64,000 nt of DNA. It comes from Ephemerocybe angulata (Eukaryota; Basidiomycota; Agaricomycetes; Agaricales; Psathyrellaceae). Position 1 is the stretch's first letter; each line of letters begins with the position of its first letter. The stretch lies in assembly GCA_013368325.1 (NCBI GenBank), contig JAACJK010000057.1, positions 1,612,001 to 1,676,000 on the forward strand. The letters run 5' to 3'. Of this stretch, positions 37,059 to 53,979 are shown in pieces. The notes beneath the pieces are model-generated. The model did not search any database and was not told the origin of the DNA. It was given only the letters and a program-made list of their open reading frames with translations. A program made the position numbers and the translations under genes.

Positions 37059-37133
37059 CCTACTCGATTCAGACCTCTCCAAAACGGGGGCATCCGTTGA
37101 TAGCTATGTTGGTCCAGACACACCGCCCCCGTG

Positions 37134-37174
37134 AGGATGATGGTCATCCTCGCCCGCGAGGATGATTATGTAAG
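37134..37174 (+). repeat. Left terminal inverted repeat
   Basis: Begins AGGATGATGGTCATCCTC and ends GATGATTATGTAAG. Its reverse complement occurs at 53811-53851 with two differences in 41 bases. The 8-base word GAGGATGA (or its complement TCATCCTC) occurs three times, two of them facing each other around TGG so that the outer 19 bases form a small palindrome. Weaker similarity continues about 20 bases inward (TGTAAA, ATGCC). Confidence 0.9.
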
Positions 37175-37529
37175 CTGTAAATAATGCCCACGCTAGATCA
37201 AACCTGCTGTGTGCCACGCCTGAACGGCGTGGCACAGCTCTTTCAACATCCCAATCCGCTCAGTGCACCTCGGATATCCAGAGCCTAGGAGGAGGAGAAA
37301 GAGGGCAGGAGGCTTTTAGATCTTATAGTTCCTTATCCCTGGCCGTTACGTCCACCCCTTTCTTTTCCAATATGGATATCGAGCGCAGTGCGTCCGCCCA
37401 CCAATGTCTGTGTAGAGATTACTCCCAGATTTCAGAATGTGTTTCTTGCGTAACGAGTGTTTATCCATCCTGTGGTTCTACAGCCATTCCCACCGCGCAT
37501 ACCTCGCCAGTCGGTTCCCTGCATCACGA

Positions 37530-39640
37530 GTGGCTCTGGTGGATGATTGCAGGTGTCCCGCTGCCCGAAAGCAACCATTGTATCGGCAGACATCGCACCG
37601 CCCAAATCACCTCTGCATTGCTTCAGTAGGAGGTGGTCATCCGACGAGTGCTTCTGGAAGCAAGGTACGCGCGAAATCTGACTTGCATTTCCTGTGGAGG
37701 CATCGGTGTTATCGCAGGTGGGTCCGCCACCCCGAAACAGTGCGCCAGTGTTGACCGTCCATCCATTCCTTCTACAGACAACGCACGGCCCAAACCAGTC
37801 CTGCAATGCTTCAGTAAGCGGTGGTCATCCAACGAGTGCTTCTGGAAGCAAAGAACGATCGAAATGTGACCTACATTTCCTCTGGAGGCATCGGTATTAT
37901 CGCAGGTGGGTCCGGAGCCCCGAAACAGTGCGCCAGGGTTGACCGTCCATCCATTCCTTCTACAGACATCGCACCACCAAAATCACCTCTTCATTGCTTC
38001 AGTAAGAGGTGGTCATCCACCGAGAGCTTCTGGAATCAAAGGACGGGCGAAATGTGAGGTGCATTTCCTCTGGAGGCATCGGTATTAAGGTCCCGTCCTT
38101 TCCTTCTACAGACATCGCACCGCCCAAATCACCTCTGCATTACTTCAGTAAGCGGTGGTCATCCAACGAGTGCTTCTAGAAGCAAAGGACGGGCGAAATG
38201 TGACCTGCATTTCCTCTGGAGGCATCGGTATTAAGGTCACGTCCCTTGCTTCTACAGACATCGCACCGCCCAAACCACCTCTGCATTGCTTCAGTAAACG
38301 GTGGTCGTCCGACGAGTGCTTCTGGAGGCGAAGAACGGGCGAAATGTGACCTACATTTCCTCTGGAGGCATCGGTATTATCGCAGGTGGGTCCGCCGCCC
38401 CGAACCAGTGCGCCAGTGTTAATCCTCCTTCCATTGCTTCTACAGACATCGCACCGCCCAAACCACCTCTGCATTGTTTCAGTAAGCGATGGTCATCCAA
38501 CGAGTGCTTCTGGAAGCAAAGGACGGGCGAAATGTGACCTGCATTTCCTCTGGAGGCATCGGTATTAAGGTCCCGTCCCTTGCTTCTACAGACATCGCAC
38601 CGCCCAAACCACCTCTGCATTGCTTCAGTAAGCGGTGGTCGTCCGACGAGTGCTTCTGGAGGCGAAGAACGGGCGAAATGTGACCTACATTTCCTTTGGA
38701 GGCATCGGTATTATCGCAGGTGGGTCCGCCGCCCCGAAACAGTGCGCCAGTGTTAACCCTCCTTCCATTGCTTCTACAGACATCGCACCGCCCAAACCAC
38801 CTCTGCATTGTTTCAGTAAGCGGTGGTCATCCAACGAGAGCTTCTGGAATCAAAGGACGGGCGAAATGTGACGTGCATTTCCTCTGGAGGCATCGGTATT
38901 AACCGTTGTTCCTAGAGACATTGTACAACCCAAACCACCCTTGCGATGCTTCTGAAAGCACCGCCCGGCCGCAACGCACGGCCCAAACCAGGCCTGCAAT
39001 GCTTCGGTAAGGGGCGGTCACCCGACGAGGAGTTCTGGAAGCAACCCACCGACGAAATGTGACCTGCGTTTGTTCTGGAGGCATCGGTATTGTCGCAGGT
39101 GGGTCCGCCGCTCCGAAACAGTGCGCCAGTGGTGACCCTCCTTCCATTGCTTCTACAGACATCGCACCGCCCAAATCAACTCTGCATTGCTTCAGTAAAA
39201 GGTGGTCATCCAACGAGACGTTCTGGAAGCAATGCGCTGACGAAAAGCGACATGTGTTTCCTCTGGAGGCGTCGATGATTGCAGTGTACACCGCCTGGCC
39301 GTTGCTTCAGCAGACAGTGCACGGCCCAAACCAATCCTGCGATGCTTCGGTAAGGGGCGGTTACCCAACGAGACGTTCTGGAAGCAACCCACCAACGAAA
39401 TGTGACTTGCGATTCCTCTGGAGGCATCGATAATTACCGCAGGTGGGTTGGCCGCCCCAGAACAGTGTGCCAGTGAACCGTTGTTTCTAGAGACATTGTG
39501 CCACTCAAACCGCCCATGCAATGCTTCTGTAAGAGTTGTTAATCCGACGAAAGGTTCTGGAAGCAACTTTCCGATGAAATGTGGCCTGCGTTTGCTCTGG
39601 AGGCATTGATTAATACCACAGGTGGGACGGCCGCCCCGAA
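37530..39640 (+). repeat. Left subterminal tandem array (145/189-base units)
   Basis: Twelve units can be counted by the word GGAGGCATCGGT or variants, with its CATCGG at 37701, 37889, 38078, 38223, 38369, 38558, 38703, 38891, 39082, 39270, 39424 and 39604. Spacings are near 189 or 145 bases. Long units contain an extra block of about 44 bases (CGCAGGTGGGTCCGCC, CCGAAACAGTGCGCC). All units share CTTCTACAGACATCGCACC, CTCTGCATTGCTTCAGTAAG and GGTCATCCAACGAG. Copies on the right side of the array are more diverged. The short frames that run through these repeats are not genes. Confidence 0.9.
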
Positions 39641-40031
39641 ACAGTGTGCCACTGCTGACCACACAACCGTTGTTCCTACAGACATCGTACTACACAAACC
39701 ACTGCTGCAATGCTTCTCTAAGAGGCGGGCGCTTGCTTTTGTATCAACTAGTCATGCATTTGTATGGCTGGTTCTGTCCAATGTTTCTGTAGACATTGGA
39801 ATCCTTATTATTATCTGACTTTCAGCTCACGGGTCTGTGTACCGTTCTGTGCTGACCCCTTCCGTGTCACGGAGACCCGCCGACAAATGTCGTGTGCCTC
39901 GTCGAGCATCGCCGAGAGGGGCTGCCAGATGGGGCGTGGGAAACCTTGAATTGCACCCATTGTACGCGCGACACTTCCCGTCTCCCTCCCACTTCACTCC
40001 CTACGTTTCACTCCTACCTGTCCCATCCCCG

Positions 40032-41134
40032 ATGCGCATCCGAAGGCTCGTTCAGCGTTATCCGTACCGGGAGGAGCTGGAGTGGTGCAGCTTCTGTAAC
40101 AAGCGACATAGTAAGTCTCCCGATAGGTCTGATTCAGTCGTATTCATGACCGCCTTCTGTCAGCGTCTGACAAGGACGCACCAATACTTCGCCTTCCTCT
40201 CGATCTCTCCCTCTTCATCGTCTCCTTGCTCCCTTTCTCTGACCGTCGCTCCCTACACGACTCGTGCCTTCACATGGAGAAGTTGGTAGCCACCCCGGTC
40301 ACTACACGCGTGCGCAACACCCTCCGGACCTTTGGGCTCGATCCCGCTCCCTTTCTCGAGTCCATGCAGTACTACGGGGCTGTGATCGGAGGCATGGCGG
40401 CTCTTCGAATCTTTGCCGAGGAAGTCCCAATGCCTCGCGTCCTGGAGGTGTATACACAGACGAGCACCGACTCCCACCCGGACTTGGGTGCCCCACACCA
40501 ACAGGTTTACGACGACAACGATGCATCGGATGATCGGGGAAATGGCTACCGCCTTGTCGACACGCTCCTCCACACGTATGAGAAATGTACGGTGCTGGGA
40601 TACCGCCACTACGGATACGGAGACAACATCGTCAAGATCTTCCGCATGGTCAATACGACGCTCGACCGAGAGATTCTATTCATACAATGTCGTGTCCCCC
40701 CTATTGCGTTAATCACCGAAGCCCCAACAACCGCCCTCATGAATTTCATCACCTCCAACGACGCGGTTTGCCTTTATCCCGAACTCACCGAGGCTCGCAA
40801 GGGGCTTTTCACCATCGTCATCCCTGAAGACGGCTCATCAACGTTCGACATCCCCGTGTTTGATAGGCTCGTTGGCCACGGTTTTACCATGTTCGAAAAC
40901 GCAACGCGCGCGATTGGACGTCACCTTTGCCCAATGAACCCCTCCTGCCCCGCACTCTCCAGGGCGTATCCCGACCTCCTGATGTACTCCGTCCACTTCA
41001 CCGACGCTGGAAGCTACGGTTCTCGCATTCCTTCGATAACGTGGAACTTAAACGTCCCTTCGTCATGTGGTTCGTCTGAAAGGATACAAACCGGTGTGTA
41101 CTTATATTTTACCGTCAAGTGGACACGAAGCTGA
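40032..41134 (+). CDS. Transposon cargo: F-box-like protein
   Basis: Exons 40032-40110 and 40164-41134 (intron GTAAGT...TGTCAG) give 349 residues. The N-terminus has a Cys pair and His (ELEWCSFCNKRH), then an F-box-like helix set, LRLPLDLSLFIVSLLPFSDR followed by RSLHDSCLHMEKL, which would bind SKP1. The rest shows GAVIGGMAALRIFAEE followed by LEVYTQ, a pattern faintly like nucleotidyltransferase folds (Gly-Gly then acidic-x-hydrophobic), but the acidic residues needed for catalysis are not clear. The 3' end is uncertain: an alternative last intron at about 41095-41143 would change the last residues to a short tail. It lies just inside the left array on the plus strand and has a good leader. 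Function in the element is unknown. Confidence 0.65.
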
Positions 41135-41330
41135 TATCAAGCAGTGGTTGGGCCCGGCAAGTGGCCGAAGGAACTCAGAGGTTGATAGCATGTACCATAC
41201 GTCGAATCTACTCTTTTGTATCGCCACGTTTGTCTCAAATCTCAGATCTCTTAGTGTTTGTCGCGCACAGTGAAAGAAAGGCAGATAAAATTCGAGAGAC
41301 GCAGAAAGAAAACAAAGATCGGTAGATAAA

Positions 41331-44083
41331 TTACGAGCCCAAGTCCATCTCCTCGTCGCCCATGTCCACGTCCTCGGCTTCCGAAAGGGATAGGTCCGCA
41401 AAGCTCCTGTGACCCGAAGGTCCCGGGGTGGGAAGATCGTCAATCTCGACGTACTGGGGCTTCTGTCGTTGCTTGGGCTGAGGGGTGGGAGGAGCGGGGG
41501 AGGGGAGAGTCAGGCCATGGTAAGAGTACCAGTTGAGAAGCGCTTCGGGGGCATTGGACGTATCCCTTCGGACGCCGTTCCTGTCAAACAGGTACAAGTC
41601 GTCGACCCTAATCCTCAAGGCCCGGAAGATATGGTTGAAGTGACCCCGGTGCCTAGGGTCTGGAGAAACGCCGAAGTATTCCATTGCGCCGGTCGAGGGG
41701 GAGACAAGCATGGGGCTGCTCTTCCACAGGTAGAAGTCGAGGAGACACGTCTCCAACTCGCACCCACAGTGCAAGTAGTATGCTTCACCTATCTTGCGGA
41801 AGAAGGTGAGCAGTTCGGCTTCGCCCATGCCGCTGACGACTGGCGGGACCTTGTGCGGGTTGTCGTTATGCGATGGCAGCCTCTTGATTACAAGACTTTT
41901 GGCTGGCCCTGGAACCTTGGCGACCGACGAAGGAAGGGCGGTCGTTGTCTGCGATGGACTGAAGGGAACACCGGTGACCTTCTTGTCGAACTTAGGCTTC
42001 CTAACCGTCCCTTTCAGCTCCCTGCTGTCCTGGTCGTTGACGAGGCACTGGTGATCGAGGACGCTGTGATACGCGCACTTTGTCTGACCGGTGCCGTTGT
42101 CCAAGAGAAACATAGACATGGCCAGGATGCGAGATGTCGTGGCAGACTCCGGCAGGTACTCCTGGACCTTCCGGGCCTTGCTACGGATCCGACCAGATAG
42201 CATGAGATTGTGAGTGATGAAGTTGTGCATAGAATTCTCGCCGGCCACTGTGAGGAAGGACATTGTCAATAACTCTTTTTTTGGACGAAGCGTGGACGGA
42301 CAAACTCACGTGCAAATTTATTGTCCTCCTCCGCGAGCTCCGCCTTCGTAAGGATCTGAGGCACCGACTCAGGTTCTGATCCCTCGCGAAGTAATTGGAA
42401 ATCGGCGTCATCGATCAACCGCATGCCCTCGTCCTCTGGCTTCATTTTCGATTTTCCCTTGCCTTTTGCACCGGCCTTGGGCCCCGTTCGTTTGGCGCCT
42501 AGAGAAGAAGGTTCGTATTAGCCGTCAAGGTACAACTGAGATGCACATAACTTCAGAACACGTACGTTTTACGGTGGGCTTCACAGGCCCTGGGGTATCG
42601 GAGTCACTCGAGATCACAATGACCTCCAAGTCAGCATCCGGCTTTCGCTTGTTTGAACCTTTAGGAGGGAGACGATCGGCAGCCTCCACCTTGGGCTTGA
42701 TATGTACTATGAATTTTGTATGATCGTGAGTTCCAATTGAATGAACAGTGTTTACGGATCCGGAGGCGTACCTTGCTGGGCTGTAGCGATGGGCGGCGCG
42801 CCACTCGCGGGAGGAGGAAGAGCGGCCTCCTGTGCCTCGGGTTTGACAGGCTGCATAGGATCTTGGGACAACGTCAGCTCTTACTCAGAGAAATGGTGTG
42901 TAGAGAGATGGACACATACCTTGTTGGGCTGGACGTACGGGCACGGGGCGTTCAGGGAGAGGAACGGCAACCTCCTGTGCCTCTGGCTTCACACGAGTCA
43001 AAGGAGCTTGAATGTACGTTAGCTCATATTGTAGTCATGAACGGGTATCACACGAACCTTGACCGACTGGGGGAACAAAGGAAGATGCAGGAGGAAGTAC
43101 AACCTCCTGTGCCTCAGGCTTGATGACACCAGTTGTGGTGGGAACGACATTTGGAGTAAGAGGTGCGGAGGTCTCGGTGACAGGGGGAAGCGCCGCATCA
43201 ACTACTCCAACAGGCGCAGCGGTCGGAGCGGTCGGCGGGATGACGGCCTCTACAACGTTAGCGGGCACAGGGACCGGAGGAACGACCGCGTTGATGACTG
43301 GAGGAGAAGCGGGATCGACGACTTCAGAGGGAGCAGTGACCTCGTTGACTGGAGGAGAAGCGGGATCGACGACCTCAGAGGGAGCAGTGACCTCGTTGAC
43401 TGGAGGAGAAGCGGGATCCACCACTCGAGAGGGCGCAGTGACCTCGTTGACCGGAGGGGTGGCGGTGGCCTCTTCGACCGGCGGAACTGCAGTGTTGACG
43501 GCTCCAGGAGGTGCAGTGGGCTCGCTGACCGGAGGGAGAGCCGCAGAGGTCTCGTTGACGGGGGGAGGAGTAGAGCCGACGCCTCCGGCTTCAGGGAGCG
43601 CAGTGGCTTGGTTGAGCGAGGGGGGAGAGGCGGAACTGACGACCTCAGAAGTCGCAGTCGCCTCGTTGTCCGGGTGGCGGTCAGTGTTGACGGGGGGAGG
43701 AGTGGAGCTGACTCCTCCGGCTTGAGGGGGCGCAGCGGCTTGGTTGAGCGAGGAAGGAGCCGCGGACTCGGAGTCCTCTGGCACAGGAGATAGAGATGAA
43801 CCTCTCTCCTCAGACCTCACTTGCGCCATGGCGCCTTCAATACCAGCCAACCGTTGTTTCATGATGTTGACCTTCCTCGAAATGTGCGAATAGGTCAACT
43901 TCTGCGATCGAGCGAAGTCCCTCCTTTTTTCCAAGTCTTCAAGTTCTCCCGTGGAGAACTTGAACGCTGCTTCAAGGGACGCTGTCAAGACCATTTAGTT
44001 ACATGCGCGTCGTCGCGAGTGCCCTACACACCAATTTTTTCAGAGTAGGGGAGGAGCCGATTGCTCTCTAGGAAGGCGTCCAT
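41331..44083 (-). CDS. Transposon cargo: 799-residue Pro-rich protein with SIM-like motif
   Basis: Seven exons: 44032-44083, 43058-43981, 42920-43006, 42772-42861, 42566-42706, 42310-42498, 41331-42247; 799 residues, all phases agree. Not a family I recognise. Order: a short coiled coil (ELEDLEKRRDFARSQKL, then VNIMKQRLAGIEGAM), a long Pro/Val/Ala/Thr-rich repeat region, three related exons each carrying KPEAQE, a basic part with EVIVISSDSD, which fits a SUMO-interacting motif followed by phosphorylatable acidic Ser, a KGKGKSKMK nuclear signal, and a C-terminal globular region (HCGCELETCLLDFYLWKS, HFNHIFRALRIRVDDLYLFD). The protein ends very acidic (EAEDVDMGDEEMDLG). It is convergent with the F-box-like gene. 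Nuclear location is likely; a role in the element is a guess. Confidence 0.75.
43296..43448 (-). repeat. Three 51-base direct repeats within coding sequence
   Basis: Three nearly identical 51-base units encode PPVNEVTAPSEVVDPAS with small changes (APSRVV in one). They are an exact multiple of three, so copy number can change without breaking the frame. Further, more diverged Pro-rich repeats lie on either side. Confidence 0.9.
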
Positions 44084-45007
44084 GACAGCTGTACGCGCTG
44101 TAAGTATCGGACCCTGAATACACCTCGAAAGCACACACCTTGAGCGGACGTTGGTTGAGCGGACATTCTGGGTATTCAATGCTTTCAGAGAGTCGGTTTC
44201 ACGTCTGAGTGGGAGTGTAGACAAAGGATGGGGGCAGGAACGTCCATTTGGGGTCGTTTACTATCCGTGAAAAGGTCCAAGGGGCACGGCCGGCCGATGA
44301 GAGCATATGGAAGGGAGGAGACACGAGTGCGCGCAACACGCGTCCATTCATGAGGCGAACAAGACATCTTGACGATTGGATGCGCGTCCGATGGCGGTCG
44401 TTGATACCAGCTGATACCAGGAGCCCGGAGGAGACATGCATGCTCGCGACACGCATGCAATCTTAAGCTAAGTAGACATCTTGACGATTGTATGCGCGTC
44501 CGATGGCTGTGGTTGATACGACCCATCTTGCTCATCGACTGTAAAAACGCTGTGGTAGGCCTTTAATGCTCTGTACAACGGAAATAGAAGAGAGATATAC
44601 TGGCTGTGTACCTTGTGGCATGAGACGAATCCAAGTGGGTTGAACTTGGCCTTTCACTTCGACATAGATGATTCAGATAGGGCAGCCTGATGCCGTCGCG
44701 TCGCGGTTCATTTTACCACCACATGACCGTGTAGATTCTCATCAGTGATCTTCGCGAAGTTGATCCCTGTGTATCATTATGGACGGGCGCCAACTGCTCC
44801 GCGCTTGGGGTTAAAAAATAAAAAAGATCATATGGTAACAGACTTGAAAAAAATCATATGCCCAACCAGGCCCAACCCTGAGCATTGAGCGATTCTCGGG
44901 GTCAAGGCCACCGTTCCAGAACCCAGGTATTTGGGCCCCAAAACCCCCATCGAAACCATGTCCATGAGTGCGCGGTATGTATATGGGAACTCGATGCTAT
45001 TCTTAAT
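44084..45007. other. Non-coding part of the transposon
   Basis: 924 bases between two cargo genes. It contains a direct repeat (44363-44407 and 44475-44519), the presumed promoter of the 799-residue protein gene and the 3' end of the next gene. No gene seen. Confidence 0.55.
44363..44519. repeat. Direct repeat of about 45 bases
   Basis: The sequence starting GACATCTTGACGATTG and running through ATGCGCGTCCGATGGC to GTTGATAC occurs at 44363-44407 and again at 44475-44519, 112 bases apart, with few differences. A tandem duplication with an intervening partly similar spacer is likely. Confidence 0.75.
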
Positions 45008-46012
45008 CTACTCCTGAAACTCAGTGGCCTCAGCCTCGTGCTCGTCTTCGCTAATTTTGGCCTCCAGGCCGACACTCTCCTCGTTCGCTTGGCTTGAGAT
45101 CCGTCCCAGCACGCTAACCCCCGTTTCACTACTGCCATCGCTATCATACTCATCCTCTGACGAATCTAATGCCTCTGGGAATGGGTCATTTAAATCAGGA
45201 TCTATTCCAAAAGCCGCCAGACCAAAAGGACTGTGTGGGGAGTGTGATGAGGTGGTGGTAAATAACGAACAGTAGATACACGTACTCGTCAACAGCAGAT
45301 GAAGTCCCAGACCTTCCATCTATTCCAAAAGCCGCCACACCAAAAGGACTGTGTGGGGAGTGTGATGAGGTGGTGGTAAATAACGAACAGTAGATACACG
45401 TACTCGTCATCAGCAGATAAAGTACTGCGACCCTTCCCAGACCTTCCAGCTTGACTGGCTCTAACATGAAACGTATCAGGCAGGCACATATATCGAGAAA
45501 GAAAAGGGAATACGCACTTGGCTACTGCAGACGTGTTGCTCTTCCTGGGCGAAGATCTATCACCCAACGAGGGATAAGCTGGAACTGTACCGATGGGCAC
45601 GTAACGACGGCCAAGCGTGTGTCTCCCTGACGGACTCTTGATGATAACGAGGTCTTCCTCTAAGCCTGCATCCCTTAGCTCCTTCCCCCGAGCCACAGAT
45701 CTACACAGGATGCGGGAAAAATCAGGCTACAGTCCTTCTCGCAGTGCAGTGACTTACTCCTTATACTGCTCCGACATCTTCTTGGGCCTGCGGCCTACGT
45801 GGTCCCCCTGAGCTTTACGTTTTTGCGCTGACCTACAGCACTATTCGCATTATTAGGAGTAGCTGCTGTGATACTTGGAAGACTTACACAGGGAGGAGAG
45901 GAAGCTCTCGAGATGGCAAAACCTGGGATGCATCTGCTGATGTGGGGTTGCTCATGGTATTGTCGATGGTGGTGTCGATGAAAGAGTGTGCAAGGTCACG
46001 GGGAGAATGCAT
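45008..46012 (-). CDS. Transposon cargo: acidic protein with duplicated exon
   Basis: Six exons: 45888-46012, 45758-45832, 45518-45700, 45404-45460, 45286-45348, 45008-45230; 241 residues, phases agree. Not recognised. The N-terminal half is basic (KRKAQGDHVGRRPKKM) and contains SVARGKELRDAGLEEDLVII; the C-terminus is acidic (DSSEDEYDSDGSSE, ISEDEHEAEATEFQE). Exons 5 and 6 are the two copies of a tandem 118-base duplication and both encode DPFGxAAFGID; splicing one or both leaves the frame open. The intron inside the duplication is the same in both copies (GTACGT...CACACAG). Confidence 0.65.
45201..45448. repeat. Tandem duplication of an exon-intron unit
   Basis: The 118 bases at 45201-45318 are repeated at 45319-45448; the second copy has a 12-base insertion. 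The unit covers one intron and the start of the exon that follows it in the minus-strand gene. The copies are nearly identical, so the event is recent relative to the rest of the element. Confidence 0.9.
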
Positions 46013-46871
46013 GATAGATCAGATTCCGCCGGAGGTTGATGTGATCCGTCATGGCATATGCCGTTACGGAGCTTTGTTGCGCGCCTCTGCGATATTTGTG
46101 AGCGCCTCTTGACGTTCCCGCCCTATCACACACAGCCCTTTGTAGGATTTCGAAGATATTATGTATCTCAGTGATTTAGACCAGCAAAAACTATACTCAG
46201 ATAATTCTCCAGTAAGCCTCGCGCCATCCTCTAGCGATAGCGAGTACATTAGGCAGTGAGTACGTGCGTGAAGCGACGTACAAAGTACTTTCATCTCTTG
46301 ACACCTTCCACGCCACTATAAATTCAGTGAGACTCGCAGGGTAGTCTAAAGCTAGGCTCACACCTTCCTTTTGTGACAGCAGGGACATCAGGCAGCCAGT
46401 GCGCGCCCCCTTGTGCGCGAAGTACAATGTGCGTTCATATGCGACGTACGAGCACTCATTTTCCGCCAGTATTCTACAGTTCAGTAAGATTGATCTGCAA
46501 GAAGTTTAACGAGCAGTGTCTGACAGTGAAAGGGTGCGTACCTCATTCTACTGTTGCTAAATCCGAGCTGGCAAGGTGCGACTTGACGCCCTTCCTTTGT
46601 CACTTGGTTTAGTATGATATATGTTTATATATGTCTAGATTTTTTCATAGCATGTACTGTGTGCTATTCATTTATTATTCTACGTACATACTTTTACTTT
46701 AAATGTATTGAGCGAGCCTGGAGAGCATGAACAGTCTTGATGGTGGAGTAAACGTGAGACGAAACGCGCAAGTCAGACGCGGAACTGTGAATCCTTACCG
46801 GTTTCGACTTTAGCAACAACCATCAAGCTCACCCCACCCCCACTCGAGTACGGGTCGTCCAGACTGCGCAC
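46013..46871. other. Degenerate repeats inside the transposon
   Basis: 859 bases with no supported gene. Around 46190-46520 similar segments recur about every 130-180 bases (for example GTACAAAGTACTTTCAT against GTACAATGTGCGTTCAT), so short minus-strand frames here show similar peptides by repetition, not by selection. The right end is AT-rich. Confidence 0.5.
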
Positions 46872-47967
46872 TCACTCACCGCGACCCACTCCCTCAATCC
46901 AGTCGAAGATTGGCTTCGCACCGGATGCATAGGCCCGTTTCTTGGAGGCGGGTGCGGGGGAACTGTTCATCGAATCCTCGCGGGGGCGCTTTTGCCCATG
47001 CTGGGACACAGAGTCCACATGGTCGTCAACGAGAGGCGTGGGACTAGTCGTTACAGAGGGTGCGGGCTGTGATGTTACATCAGAGGTTTCAAGTTCGCCA
47101 TCCGGGAGTGGGACTGCGCCGGCGGGCTCTGGCACAGCACATGCGGAGGGCATGAGCCCAGCCTGTGTCGCAGGGACGGGGGCTGTAATATCCTGTGTCG
47201 CAGGGACGGGGGCTGGAATATCGTCGTCCAGAAGGGAGAGATCGACGTTGTAGGCGTTACTCTGGGCCGTCAGAGGCGCACCACCGACGGTTGAAGGAGA
47301 CTGGTCAGTTCCGGCAGGCGGTGCAGTAGCAGACGGAGGCGCGGGTCCCGCAAGCCCATAGGAGGCGGGGTTGAAGAGCCAGGGGTGCGACATTGGGGTA
47401 TCTGATTGGGATGTTAGAATGTGCACGCCGTCCGCGATTCGCGAAGGAAGAGCAACTTACACCCGGGAGGGAACTGATACACCGGAGCACTTGGAGTTCC
47501 AGGGGGGTAGCTCTGAACTCCAGCAGGAGTTGCTGAGGGTGGGTTGAAGTTGAAGGCGTACGGGTTCACTGAGAGAGGTTTGATGGATCAGCAAAGGACA
47601 ACGAGAACAACCTAATTCTAACTTACTTTGTCCAAATTGAAATTGAGGGTACATCGGCACTACGAGGGAAGGTATAAATTGATGATGAGATATTTAATGT
47701 GCACGGGGCGCACCTTGTTGAGCTGCGAGTGCTGGACCTTGTTGGACAGCGAGTGTTGGATCGATGACTGGGTTCTGACCAGCGGGGGGAGGCTATTGAT
47801 AGCCTTTAGAGAGATATCCCGTACGCGAATGCAAAACGTACACCTGCTTGAGCCTTGCGGCTGTGAGCACACTCAGTCAGGAGTGGGCTACCATCACATC
47901 GACGGCAGTGAAGCTTTTTGGCGGGCTTCGGCTCTTTGGTTGGTTGTCGACGTTTGGAAGGAGCCAT
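46872..47967 (-). CDS. Transposon cargo: Pro-rich protein with Cys/His cluster
   Basis: Five exons: 47842-47967, 47714-47792, 47627-47659, 47461-47568, 46872-47401; 291 residues. Not recognised. It starts with a basic segment and possible zinc knuckle (APSKRRQPTKEPKPAKKLHC, then RRCDGSPLLTECAHS: C-x2-C ... C-x-H). The middle is Pro/Gln/Phe-rich (NPYAFNFNPPSATPAG), and the C-terminal half has low complexity with a repeated PAPVPATQD/TAPVPATQ, a nuclear-signal-like GQKRPREDSM and SKKRAYASG, ending in FDWIEGVGRGE. The gene is divergent from the transposase gene, 482 bases apart, and may share its promoter region. Confidence 0.65.
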
Positions 47968-48110
47968 GATGATGTTGAGTTGTCGTTGGCTAACGGTGCC
48001 AGGCTATATGGAGAGGGATGGGGTTCGAGCGAAAACAGCGGGTGCCCATGAGACGACCCTGGAACGATCCCACATGACTCCTGCCTTCTCCCTTGTATCA
48101 TCGTTCCCCA

Positions 48111-48345
48111 TGTGAGCCCATGTGAGCCCATGCGCCTTGATAAGATTGGATTGAGGCCCGCGCCGGGTGCTGAATTGGAAATGACGCGCTAAGCACGACC
48201 AAAGCACGACGGTGAGCCCATGCGCCTTGATGAGACTGGATTAAGACCCCCACTTGGAGACGATGGGTGCCGAATTGCAAATAACTTGCCTAAGCCAGCC
48301 GGTGACCCATGTGCCTCGCATGGGAGCGGATTAAGGCCCCAAATA
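48111..48345. repeat. Three diverged direct repeats before the transposase gene
   Basis: Segments with GTGAGCCCATGCGCCTTGAT followed by GGATT(A/G)AGGCCC occur near 48118, 48211 and, more diverged, 48300, spaced about 90 bases. They lie in the 482-base divergent promoter region of the transposase and the neighbouring cargo gene, so they might be regulatory sites or simple relics. Confidence 0.6.
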
Positions 48346-48449
48346 TGTATTTGGATCGATGGGTGCTGAGCGCTGAATCGGAAACAAGGCTCATAAACCA
48401 CACGACACTTTTACCCCCACCCCAAGGCATTGCTTTCTAGCTCACCAAT

Positions 48450-51400
48450 ATGGCCACGAGAAAGAAACGAAGGCGTAAAGATGAAGATGACCTTGACGAT
48501 GAGGCTCAGCATTCGTTCCCTAGTGAGCTCCTGGAGGCCGTGGCGGAAACTTCTTACTGGACATCCCCAACGAAACCTCAGCGAATTTTCGAAGAGGCAA
48601 AGAGCCCTAGAAAGCGCGTTGTAAAGAAGGTTCTTGCTCAATCATCGCAGACCGCTGGGGCTTTCAAAGAGGATGATGAGGGTGCTTGGACACAAGAGGT
48701 GCCGTCAAGTCAAGCTACGGGCGCCAGTGGCATCGAGGACGGTGGGACAATATCGGACGTTGTGCCCGACCAAGCGCCGGACGACGGTGATTTCGGCTCT
48801 TGGGTCGGCTCGGAAGTAATTGATCCAGACCTTGGGTGGATCGGCGAAGACGACGACTTCGAAGACTATGTTGACGCCGTAACCTCACATGTCGCGGGGT
48901 ATAGCCACCTTCATACCTCTCTATTCGTTGTTCAGGGATGGGATTCTAACAAGAGGCAGACCACGGTAAGTGTCGTATCTGATTTAGTTTGCTTTAATAC
49001 TTGACATTGACTCCACCTAAGGATGCGTGGTATCATATGCGATTCCAAACCTCCGATGTAGGACAGCTCGACACCGGGTGCACCTGCCCTAAAGCTCTTA
49101 ACCGCAACCTCTGTGTGCACAGGCGGTACTTTCAGGACTATGAGGTCGAGAGTATCATTCTCGAGAAGAATGCCGAAGGAACCGAGGACAGGGATGTTGC
49201 AGGTGATAAGGATAGGACAGGTAAGCTACTTAACTTACCTCTTCAGTAATGAAATAGCATTGTAACGATGGACTCATCACCCCCGGCAGCGACGCTCTTC
49301 TCCCGCCGCATCCTAGGACGCCATCGTTTGGAAAGCTTGTACTCCGTTCAGTCGATGTCGTCCTCCGAGCTCAAAGGCCGAGCGATCGTCAGTAATATCC
49401 TTTCCCGTTCGGAATCGACCTGGAAATGCTCCAAGGACACGGGACTTCTATCATGCTATCATATAAACAAGGCCAGAGAGCGGTACCCAGACGTCCCAGA
49501 AGATGAAATCGAAGATTTGGAGGACTTTGTAGACTCAAGCCTCGACTCACTCTCTATAGGCGAACTTGGTCAGTTCCTGTGATCTGAACTATCTTGTGGG
49601 ATGACGCTGATCTATCCTCAGCTCGCGGACCCGGTACCACAGTATCCTATCTGCCAATACATCCACCGTTCTGGGCGCGAATCCCGTCCGACCCCAAGCT
49701 CTATTCCGATCCCCCTCCTGCCCGGACACCCCCAGATGGCCCATTCCCTCTTCAAGCCGATTCCTCCTGCAACTGTGGAACAACGCGGACCTTCTTCAAT
49801 AGGGATGGGCTGAAAAAAACGAAGCGTTGCAAGTTGTACACCCTGCTAACGGTTCATGACGTCGAGATTGAGGTTCAAGTCTGCCCCGTTTGTCCTTCCG
49901 TCCGGCGAAAGCGAATCGGCCCTGATCTGCGCGCACATGGCATATTCAATTTCAACAATTCTGCCCTTGTCTCCCACGAGCTACTTGACGAATACACCAG
50001 CTGCTTTACCTCCTCAGAGACGCCCTTTACCGCCTGGTATACGCAATTGTCAAGACGCTATCTCCTTTCTGGAAAAGAGTTCATGGGCGACGACCTCTTT
50101 CGCGCCGTATGGTTCGCATACGTCTCCCTCCAGAAGTTCGACAACGACATGTCCTGTACGGTCTGCGGACCATCACCCGAGACGGTCATCTGGGATGGAA
50201 TCACCTTAGCCTTTGGCCGGAAGCATCTCAGTGGTTCACTTCGCCCACCAACGTTTACGATGCCAGATTCCGTTCGGCGCCCTAACGTAAAGTACAAACC
50301 AAAGCAGCAACTCTTGCCCCTGGCGACATTACGACGGCGTTTCCGAGCCACGATGGAGCGGCCCACGCATCCCGACCGCATCGAGGATGGGGAAGAAGAA
50401 GGCGGTGTTGATGGCGCAAAATCTCCTTCGAAGAAATCGCGAGCCAAACCCAAGGCGAAGAAGGGTGGTACTGCGTCAAACCCCGACACTCCGTCGAAGC
50501 GGGCACAGGCCATCCCCGAGACATCCACCCCTTCGCTATCTCCCATGAAACCGCAGGCTAACTCCGCGGCGATCTCGCTATCAACTGTGGCGGTCTCTAC
50601 TGAAGCAACTGGTGCAACAGAAGGCACTCTCGAAGACGCAGGACCGACACCACTTCCCGCCACCAATCCAAATGAGAACCTCCGACGTCGACAGGCTTTG
50701 TTAGTGGAAGACTACTTGGAGAAGGTGGACTCGGTGACTGAAGACATGAGAAAGGAATGTCCCGCCTTAGCGCAGCTATATACGATGCATTACGGCCGTG
50801 CAGCCTTTTGGTCAGGGCACAAACCTCCTGCCGTCATAAAGAACTTGTTCCGACAGGTACGCCCATTCTCTGGTCATGTGGACCCTGCTTACGACAACAT
50901 AGATCGCCGCCGAGGAATCTGTGCTACAACTCGTCAACTACACGGCACTGCTCAAGCTTAGGGAGTTTGTGGCGAAGCCAGACGTTAACGTGGCCTATAA
51001 GCTGAGGCCCATACCTTCCCTGAACAAGGTTATAAATCACAGCGACGTAGATCTTGCTGATCTCTTGGGAGTGATGACCTGGATTGAAAAGAAGGCGCGT
51101 GCTACTCTCAAAGCACTGATCGTTGAACCGCCGCTGCCACCGCCCAACATACATATCCTCCCGAATGATCATCTGGATTGGATAACGGTACATCCTCTTT
51201 TGCCCTCGCCCCCATTCACCTCTAACTGACTAAATTTCGACAGACTGGTTGCTTTTATAGCATGCCCATAATACGGCATCGCCCGCTTTATCCGTCACTG
51301 AAAGAGAACCAAGAAGAACAGGCATCAGGCCAGCAACGTGGGGATCGATGCGGGAAGTATTACTCTCAATATGGAGAACGACGATTAACTGGGGGTATCA

Positions 51401-51834
51401 TGGTATGCTGGTGTTCGCACAGCATTTGTTACGGGTTCCATTGTATCCCCAAAGCCGAAGGTCGTGACGATGTCTTCTCAGCAATGGTGACTCGATGGCC
51501 GACAGCTCCCAAAATCGTCATCTACGACTTTGCATGCGCCTTGGGTCCCTACTGCTTGCTGCGCGAGCCTATGTTTTTTGCAAATACCCTCTTTGCCATT
51601 GACATCTTTCATGCCACAGGTCACAGCAAATGTAGCCCTGCAGCATTCCTATCCGAGTATATGAATGTGGACACCAAGCTCGAATACATCAATTCGAGCG
51701 CGGCCGAATGCGGCAATGGAGCACTTAGGAGGATTCGAAAATCGGTCAGCTATATGGGACAGAAGAGGGCTATTATATATACAAAGGTCTTCCTTTCTGT
51801 ATGGAATAGGCTGAAGATCTTGAAAATAGACTAG
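48450..51834 (+). CDS. KDZ-class transposase with two Cys/His clusters
   Basis: Six exons: 48450-48965, 49022-49220, 49290-49568, 49622-50856, 50903-51187, 51244-51834; 1034 residues. The N-terminus is basic (ATRKKRRRKDEDD). A SWIM-like cluster C-x-C...C-x-H is in TGCTCPKALNRNLCVHRRYF, a second C...C-x-H in STWKCSKDTGLLSCYHINK, and a CxC5-like cluster in SSCNCGTT and VQVCPVCPSV. The core motif of the KDZ nuclease is seen in the last exon: GIMVCWCSHSICYGFHCIP, VIYDFACALGPYCLLREP, FAIDIFHATGHSKCSPAAF, and SSAAECGNGALRRIRKSVSY. These are the invariant Asp, Cys, His and Glu positions of the family. The third exon join (intron 49221-49289) fuses two frames that look like separate genes; it is preferred because the ATG of the second lies only 13 bases after the stop of the first. 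No frame is broken. Confidence 0.85.
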
Positions 51835-52035
51835 CATTTATGGTGGCTTAACTGCCCTATCAATTTGTGAGGCCAGTAGTTATGTTTACAGAAGCAGTGA
51901 TCTGACGATCCACGGAGGTGAACGAACGCAAGCTCAATACTCAGGGACCTATGTCTCCAGAGGCATAGAAGGGCTGATGTTCGATTGGGGAGGAGGTACA
52001 AATGAGAAACTGGAGTGTCCAATGTCAGCAGAAGC

Positions 52036-53385
52036 ATTGCTGATGGGAGGATTGAGGACGCACCCTCCGTTGGTTGTAGAGACATCGGCTTCGCGCTGAG
52101 AATCGACGGAGCCCGATGGCTACCTACCTAGGTCAGTTGCACACTTTTGGAAGGCCATGCAATGTTGTTGGATTTGCTGTGAGTGTAACTTCGTTGGTGC
52201 AAGATTGATCACGCCCCAATGGCATCCTTCGGTCGTCCTGCAGAGCTTCTTCCCAACAACATTCCATTTGCCGTCACGGATGGGCTTGTTAAACTATGAG
52301 GGAAACTACCACGGTCTCGCACAGATAAGACACCGTACCATTGGTGGAGAACCGCGAAACTCGATTAGCGGGGGTTGCATCTAAGTGGTGTCAACGTCCA
52401 TCGGTTGACCTGCATCCCAGCCGATATCAAGGACTCCGACGCTTGATAGGTCTCAGGGTCGAAAACCTAACCATCTCGCGAGCTGCCACCTCCGGCAGCG
52501 CTTTCTTAAAAAGTTGGTTGGATTCGATGTTGTGGAGGAGACACAAATGAAAAACTGGAGTGTCCAATGTCAGCAGAAGCATCGGCGATGGGAGGATGGA
52601 GAACGCACCCTCCGTTGGTTGTAGAGACATCGCAGGCCCGATAGATGCCGCCCTATGTCTACTGAAGCAGTGTAAGGGCGTCACGCGCTTATGGAGGGAA
52701 TGCAGCCCGGAAAATGAGCGTCCATTGTCAGGAGAGGCATCGGTGATGGGAGAATCGAGAACGCACCTTCCGTTGGTTGTAGAGACATCGCAGGCCCGAT
52801 AGACGGCGCCCTATGTCTACTGAAGCGCTGTAAATGCGTCGCGCGCTTATGGAGGGAATGCAGCCCAGAAAATGAGCGTCCATTGTCAGGAGAAGCATCG
52901 GTGATAGGAGGATCGAGAACGCACCTTCCGTTGGTTGTAGAGACATCGCAGGACCGATAGACGGCGCCCTATGTCTACTGAAGCGCTGTAAAGGCGTCGC
53001 GCGCTTATGGAGGGAATGCAGCCCGGGTAATGCGCGTCCAATGTTGGCAGAAACATTGCTGATAGGAGGATCCAGAACGCACCCTCCGTTGGTTGTGGAA
53101 ACATCGGGGCTTCGCGTGGTTGTGGAGGAAATGCAGCAGCGAAACCGCCGCCCAATGTCAGCAGATGCATTGCTGAAGCGAGGATGGAGAACGCACCGAC
53201 CATTGGTTGTAGAGACATCGCAGGCTCGATAGACGGCGCCCTATATCTACTGAAGCAGCGTAAGGGTGTCGCGCGCTTATGGAGGGAATGCAGCCCGGAT
53301 AATGAGCGTCCAATGTCGGCAGAAACATCGGTGATGGGAGGATCGAGGACGCGCCTTCCGTTGGTTGTAGAGACATCGCAGGCCC
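52036..53385 (+). repeat. Right subterminal tandem array (158-base units)
   Basis: Seven copies of a segment ending GTTGGTTGTAGAGACATCG, with ACATCG near 52082, 52628, 52785, 52943, 53101, 53215 and 53373. Four spacings are 157-158 bases, one is 114 and one 546 (interrupted by unrelated sequence). Each unit also has GGAGGATCGAGAACGCACC, GCGCGCTTATGGAGGGAATG, CTATGTCTACTGAAGC and GAGCGTCCAATGTC. ACATCG and CTACTGAAGC also occur in the left array, the latter inverted, so the two arrays share motifs. Confidence 0.88.
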
Positions 53386-53810
53386 GATAGACGGCGCCCT
53401 TAGCGCCGTTGCTTGTAGAAACACTGCGGAGGTGGTCCGTATCGTGGACCGTATCACCTGGATAACCGGGAGCTCAATCCAGCATGCCATGTCTACACAT
53501 GCAGCTATGTCTACAGATGCACCGAACTTTGGATGAGTGTTTAAGGAAGTATTCGAGGTGTCCACGGTCACCGGAAGCTTTGCTGAGGGATGGATGGGAG
53601 CGCACTCATCTCATCGTGAAGTACTGCTGGGATGGGATTCTAGACGGAAAGGACCCAGTGGGATACACCTACAGACCATTTGACAGTATGGTACGCGATT
53701 GAGCCAAGCATTGGCCCACCTGCGACAGGATATAGCAGAAAGGGCAAAGGCCAAGGTATGGCCTATTGAGCGGGCATAGCCAAAAAGGGTGCAGGCATCA
53801 CTTTTTACAT

Positions 53811-53851
53811 CTTACATAATCATCCTCGCCGGTGAGGATGACCATCATCCT
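53811..53851 (-). repeat. Right terminal inverted repeat
   Basis: Reverse complement of the left repeat at 37134-37174 with two differences (39 of 41). On the plus strand it runs from CTTACATAATCATCC to CCATCATCCT. Confidence 0.9.
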
Positions 53852-53979
53852 TCCCGGTTAGGTGCGTGTGGACCATCATCCGGTTTGTCGGTTATCTGCC
53901 AAAACACTATCAATCCGTTTCAAACCCCGCCACAGCTCCTCTGCCCAGTTTGGACTCCGCCTCGTCCAACGCTTCCCCG

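Follow-up and report, generated by a model that had tools for sequence, protein, structure and literature searches.

The window analysed here, a 64,000-nucleotide stretch of contig JAACJK010000057.1 of Ephemerocybe angulata, contains a large, multi-gene mobile element. In our reading, to which we assign a probability of about 0.75, it belongs to the CxC4 class of KDZ-superfamily DNA transposons and has recently been amplified, the copy in the window having undergone an internal deletion; in its complete form it measures 18.6 kb and joins a transposase gene and conserved helper genes to a swappable, possibly anti-silencing cassette. The element has defined ends flanked by 8-bp duplications, occupies about 31 sites, and is near-identical among its best copies. 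Six genes can be modelled in the complete form, and four of them, A, B, C and the transposase gene T, keep a common order in diverged relatives. A preliminary description of the same stretch, made from its letters alone, had already called it a mobile KDZ-class unit with several genes and defined ends, and that core is retained here. All searches for copies and relatives were made in one genome, that of E. angulata (58.7 Mb, 232 contigs); designations such as C223 or C146 are its contigs.

The limits of the element follow from alignment of its copies with their flanks. The copies agree from GGGGCATCCG... to ...GGTTATCTG and diverge beyond these points; the element therefore runs from 37087 to 53898 (Table 1), and these ends replace the termini proposed earlier, 37134 and 53851. 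The inverted stretches behind that proposal are real, since 64 of 76 columns match in a local alignment with a score of 92, and random pairs of window stretches, up to 2,000 of them, scored no higher than 28. However, the true ends lie 47 bp further out on each side, and the 41 bases described as inverted termini are the inner part. The outermost 20 bp or so of the two ends show no mirror-image relation, that is, the inverted repeat lies subterminally. The sequence AGACATCG occurs on the + strand nine times in the left subterminal region and six times in the right one; in the middle of the element it is absent from the + strand and found once on the − strand.

Further copies with identical ends, for which the preliminary description proposed to search, exist in the genome. 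A 145-bp probe of the left end gave at least 30 perfect full-length matches, the window included, plus one at 98%; a 141-bp probe of the right end gave at least 32, again plus one at 98%. These counts are lower bounds, as 40 of 71 candidates were scored on the left (41 rows) and 40 of 68 on the right (40 rows). Target sites were read at 32 left and 32 right junctions, leaving the left ends on C126, C65, C76 and C88 (cut by contig ends) and the right end on C14. The left flanking 8-mers comprise 31 distinct sequences, those of C139 and C141 being the same, and 26 of these sequences recur exactly at a right end. Both ends lie on one contig in six copies, with flanks identical at 8/8 bases in five and at 7/8 in the window (CCAAAACG/CCAAAACA). 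Of the remaining 26 left ends, 22 share their 8-mer exactly with a right end located on a different contig, against a chance expectation of about 0.01 by arithmetic; the partner of C127 is offset by one base, and those of C37, C9 and C6 are absent from the right junctions read. No strong target consensus is seen among the flanking 8-mers read. The flank of one insertion, with the duplication ACATAGAT (C77/C57/C59), continues into sequence of the element, which has thus inserted into one of its own copies. A telomeric location was considered, as left-end matches are often found some 10 kb in from where a contig starts; it was dropped because contigs break within the element and the matching right ends sit on other contigs.

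The complete copies on C223, C207 and C152 measure 18,577–18,579 bp. Compared with C223 (18,579 bp), C207 has no mismatch and four single-base gaps, C152 no mismatch and two such gaps, and the window copy, aside from its deletion, no mismatch in either block and one gap. The single-base indels between these best-assembled copies may be assembly errors or real. A fourth copy with both ends, on C139, is 18,854 bp long, contains an internal duplication and shows a larger number of gaps; about 6.8 kb is missing from C151, and C88 has additional DNA between its ends. With some 31 insertion sites and near-identical best copies, the element is recently amplified. If all were full length, 31 sites of 18.6 kb would make up roughly 1% of the genome by arithmetic.

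In its complete form the element has T and five other genes, A to E, all of them spliced; models were sought in ten copies, and every intron of the final models is GT-AG. The transposase had been described as unbroken and KDZ-type. It is indeed open in the window, and its product matches the Pfam family CxC4 with an E-value of 2.7e-44 (8.1e-44 and 2.2e-41 in relatives), but the KDZ domain that follows on the C-terminal side is matched below the Pfam cut-off. A CxCx8CxH motif in T is SWIM-like, with a Pfam SWIM match at an E-value of 0.31 in the C146 relative. A phmmer search with the T core and a profile search of the PDB with five A proteins returned nothing (best E-value about 1).

None of the proteins A to E has a Pfam match above the cut-off. 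The F-box-like gene of the preliminary description corresponds to A, for which the likeness is weak: an F-box is matched in three of the five A proteins scanned, always below the cut-off, with E-values of 0.93 in the window, 0.13, and 0.015 in a relative as the best, and an F-box-like match in A stands at 0.056, whereas the A proteins of C214 and C202 have no F-box match in Pfam. A fish Zisupton isoform with an F-box, mentioned in the excerpted text of PMC12062965, offers a precedent. A nucleotidyltransferase, considered for A by eye, found no Pfam support. The 799-residue protein was given exactly and is B. Its SUMO-interaction-like motif, VIVISSDSD, is retained in the C232 relative; inspection by eye shows an IDLT-type motif in C214. 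Of the two low-complexity proteins, one is most likely D, which is open, and the other C, which is cut short in the window. Within D, one exon and its intron are duplicated at 45200–45423 as a 118-bp tandem repeat with 97% matches, giving a repeated DPFG-AAFGID motif. Single-sequence structure predictions were useless, with a mean pLDDT (predicted local distance difference test) of 34.4 for exon 2 of A and 37.8 for the last exon of B.

The window copy differs from the complete form by a private deletion, whose junction occurs once in the genome and which takes out gene E and the C-terminal part of C. The preliminary description counted four cargo genes; the complete element has five extra genes.

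The preliminary description held the cargo genes to be unrelated-looking. That view is not supported by comparison with diverged relatives, found by protein searches of the genome with A, B, C, D, E and T (for E, C and D, the figures below refer to the matches listed). Stretches were read on C146, C214, C202 and C232. A, B, C and T lie in the common order A-B-(slot)-C-T in the relatives on C146, C214 and C202, the last of which also has E; the stretch read on C232 shows the left end, A and B only. Since A, B and C recur in one order with T in diverged relatives, they look, from the sequence comparison, like the element's own genes and not random cargo. The C146 relative is complete, with 17,694 bp between the ends GGGGCAACCGTTGATGGC...GATATCTG and a duplication, CATTGATG, identical at 8/8 bases; it is thus a separate transposon family of the same layout. 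Ends and duplications were also looked for in C214 and C202 and were not found. In C214, T is in two pieces 33 kb apart, and a second, shorter A-like open reading frame, seen by eye between B and C at about 117.7–118.3 kb, has no Pfam match. Long inverted arrays, largely identical over about 1.2 kb aligned, flank the relative on C202 (stretch C202:72001-90000), and a near-perfect palindrome of about 70 bp is seen by eye within them; the arrays represent terminal repeats of great length or else a palindrome created by the assembly.

The linkage of B and T extends beyond the stretches read. For 15 diverged B loci and 18 diverged T rows, picked by hand (C214 enters twice, as two pieces of one T gene) and leaving aside near-identical copies and degenerate rows on main-family contigs, 13 of the 15 B loci lie within 25 kb of a T locus, 8–21 kb upstream of it and all on the opposite strand. 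Under random placement the probability is about 3e-22. The T loci on C152, C130, C22 and C67 have no listed B. The divergence involved is deep. Synonymous sites are near or at saturation in the relatives (proportion of synonymous differences, pS, 0.61–0.89) and non-synonymous change is lower: A compared with C232 gives a non-synonymous divergence (dN) of 0.23 and a synonymous divergence (dS) of 1.27, and exon 6 of T compared with C146 gives a non-synonymous proportion (pN) of 0.10 and a pS of 0.88. Values over low-complexity stretches of B and C come from poor alignments (pN up to 0.55) and are unfit for use. A defined set of proteins has travelled with a KDZ transposase through deep divergence.

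Between B and the C–T pair lies a slot whose content varies by family: D and E in the main element, E in C202, a further gene, F, in six relatives, and a weak TET/JBP-like gene in two. All 11 matches to F (the query, from C146, included) fall in six elements of this kind, five with a pair of matches and the sixth, on C112, with one. The C152 element of this group has F, C and T, and B was not found in it. A search of the genome with the Pfam model Tet_JBP gave 30 matches. Two of the five below the cut-off sit between T and B, on C107 and C150, in open frames for which Tet_JBP is the sole Pfam match (E-value about 3e-6, below the cut-off); the chance of at least two of 30 matches falling in T–B intervals is about 0.003. 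The TET-like slot protein has no PDB match at E-values up to 1, and Pfam finds no TET/JBP domain among the six proteins of the main element. None of the 25 Tet_JBP matches above the cut-off lies in a T–B interval. They represent a large family outside these elements, perhaps on other transposons.

These arrangements suggest a mechanism. T would cut the element out and paste it in, and probably binds the subterminal arrays common to both ends through AGACATCG. B and C, and A with them, may be nuclear helper proteins for transposition or for evading host control. A slot between B and C/T would hold genes (D with E, E, F, TET/JBP-like) that are exchanged among families, and by analogy with the published proposal for transposon-borne TET/JBP genes, the slot genes might partly counter silencing. 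It is tempting to go further and see a eukaryotic transposon of modular build, comparable to a small phage, with a core of B, C, T and usually A, and one slot swapped for counter-silencing cassettes, be it a TET/JBP-like dioxygenase, F, or D with E. We regard this as a tentative idea that is more probably wrong than right. If true, the slot genes would be functional equivalents of a DNA demethylase, i.e., new anti-silencing proteins.

Several observations weigh against the reading of one KDZ transposon with its own helper genes. The KDZ domain stays below the Pfam cut-off of 26.6 bits in all three T proteins scanned (E-values 0.012, 0.015 and 5.2e-5), with scores of 15.7 and 15.4 bits and 23.5 bits in the best relative. 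No copy among the ten has all six models open, although single-base indels are all that separates the best copies; T is open in six, A and D in seven each, E and C in five each, and B in three, some models having been missed owing to a changed anchor word or to a copy that is cut short or carries a deletion. A is inverted in C202 relative to the other relatives, and the B loci on C232 and C186 have no T nearby. Diverged members of A occur away from any T or B found (e.g., C133:317 kb, C90, C11, C207:430 kb and C125:2.18 Mb), as do three of the four diverged E loci among the matches listed (C13, C124 and C209:32 kb). It follows that neither A nor E is strictly tied to the element. D, among the matches listed, is confined to main-family contigs, and the tie of D and E to the element is weaker than that of A, B and C.

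The scattered members of A and E, and the failure of every extra gene to reach the Pfam cut-off, are what one expects if host genes were captured by a KDZ element and are carried without use to it. We think this unlikely, since A, B and C hold their order with T in relatives so diverged that synonymous sites are near or at saturation while the proteins are more constrained. A composite of nested or neighbouring transposons, with some of the genes from a different element, would explain the variable slot, the extra DNA in C88 and the split T of C214, and nested self-insertion does occur (C77/C57); it is nevertheless very unlikely, given that one pair of ends recurs at about 31 sites, that three copies hold the same 18.6 kb between them, and that a single pair of ends encloses the same layout in the C146 relative. 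As to near-identity and copy number being effects of the assembly, the real element being rarer or older, many contigs break inside the element, with indel noise there, and C139, C141 and C112 have one 8-mer in common and may be one insertion. Against this stand the 31 distinct left 8-mers, 26 of them exactly at a right end, and the agreement of the contig-internal copies (C223, C207, C152 and the window) save for single-base indels and the window deletion; we give an assembly effect hardly any credence.

The recent burst means that this one genome supplies a large number of near-identical insertions. One of them, the window copy, separates the start codons of a divergent pair of open reading frames. 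On its left, the element lies 28 bp from the ATG (37058) of a leftward frame, which adjoins a frame with a weak DUF3512 match; on its right, it lies 81 bp from the ATG (53980) of a frame with a mitochondrial ribosomal L51/S25 domain (Pfam E-value 1.8e-7). Without the element, the two start codons would be about 100 bp apart.

Table 1. Features of the element copy in the window (window positions; those of gene C were converted from C223 by arithmetic).
Feature	Position	Strand	Remarks
Whole element, window copy	37087..53898	+	16,812 bp; limits from alignment to other copies
Left flanking 8-mer (target-site duplication)	37079..37086	.	CCAAAACG
Left subterminal inverted repeat	37106..37181	+	local alignment
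Left subterminal tandem array	37560..39728	+	146/188-bp units
Gene A	40032..41134	+	349 amino acids, 2 exons (40032-40110, 40164-41134); weak F-box, conserved C-terminal part
Gene B	41331..44083	-	799 amino acids, 7 exons; SUMO-interaction-like motif, conserved C-terminal part
Gene D	45008..46012	-	241 amino acids, 6 exons, open in the window; one exon duplicated with its intron
Junction of private deletion	46876..46877	.	1,768 bp removed (net 1,767)
Gene C, 5' part only	46877..47967	-	complete form 458 amino acids in other copies; N-terminal CxxCx8CxH motif
Gene T, transposase	48450..51834	+	1034 amino acids, 6 exons, GT-AG introns, open in the window
Right subterminal tandem repeats	51985..53400	+	mostly 158-bp units
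Right subterminal inverted repeat	53804..53879	-	local alignment
Right flanking 8-mer (target-site duplication)	53899..53906	.	CCAAAACA

As a large fungal element bearing genes, the transposon resembles the Starships, the giant transposons of the Pezizomycotina, as far as excerpted accounts describe these. Starship classification is based on a tyrosine recombinase, and Mavericks/Polintons feature a protein-primed DNA polymerase B and a retroviral-type integrase. At E-values up to 1, Pfam finds no match to a tyrosine recombinase (the Starship captain), to such a polymerase or to such an integrase among the six proteins. For an insert at MSH4 of Pleurotus with a CxC5/CxC6 region, no KDZ transposon is reported nearby (PMC7641404). 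Closer are the KDZ (Kyakuja-Dileera-Zisupton) elements KDZ1–3 of Cryptococcus neoformans, active elements of 9–11 kb with CxC1, 139–241-bp terminal repeats, and duplications of 8 bp for KDZ1 and 4–8 bp for KDZ2 and KDZ3 (PMC12810828). The transposon described here has in common with them a transposase with a cysteine cluster (its KDZ core being matched below the Pfam cut-off), inverted repeats and short duplications; it differs in its 18.6 kb, its CxC4, an inverted repeat that begins about 20 bp inside the ends, and its five further genes.

Many fungal transposons carry TET/JBP genes, whose proposed role is to counter silencing; 8-bp duplications are known for Zisupton and the described Dileera family, while Kyakuja has 7 bp and is without inverted repeats (PMC12730594). 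Like the TET/JBP-carrying KDZ elements of Agaricomycetes and rusts in that account, ours has a KDZ-type transposase, accessory genes and 8-bp duplications as in Zisupton and Dileera. Unlike them, the main element is without TET/JBP, the weak TET/JBP-like gene being in the slot of two diverged relatives. In size and extra genes, it is like the giant KDZ elements of Ectocarpus, which reach 30.3 kb and include giant families with extra genes, and of Chlamydomonas (31.7 kb); broken transposases are frequent in Ectocarpus and nested insertions occur in most of its giant families, whereas here we see a recent burst and a gene order common to several families (PMC12477816). The same source states that fungal KDZ elements frequently carry accessory genes. 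Large KDZ elements with such genes are therefore already published, and the preliminary suggestion of a new kind of element is not supported. The excerpted, openly licensed literature on KDZ elements with cargo or accessory genes yielded no description of this gene set. Both the KDZ family described here and its multi-gene layout are new. The strongest new point is the conserved linkage of uncharacterised proteins with a transposase, together with a slot in which a TET/JBP-like gene, F, and D/E replace one another; this natural exchange series makes the role of transposon-borne accessory genes directly testable.

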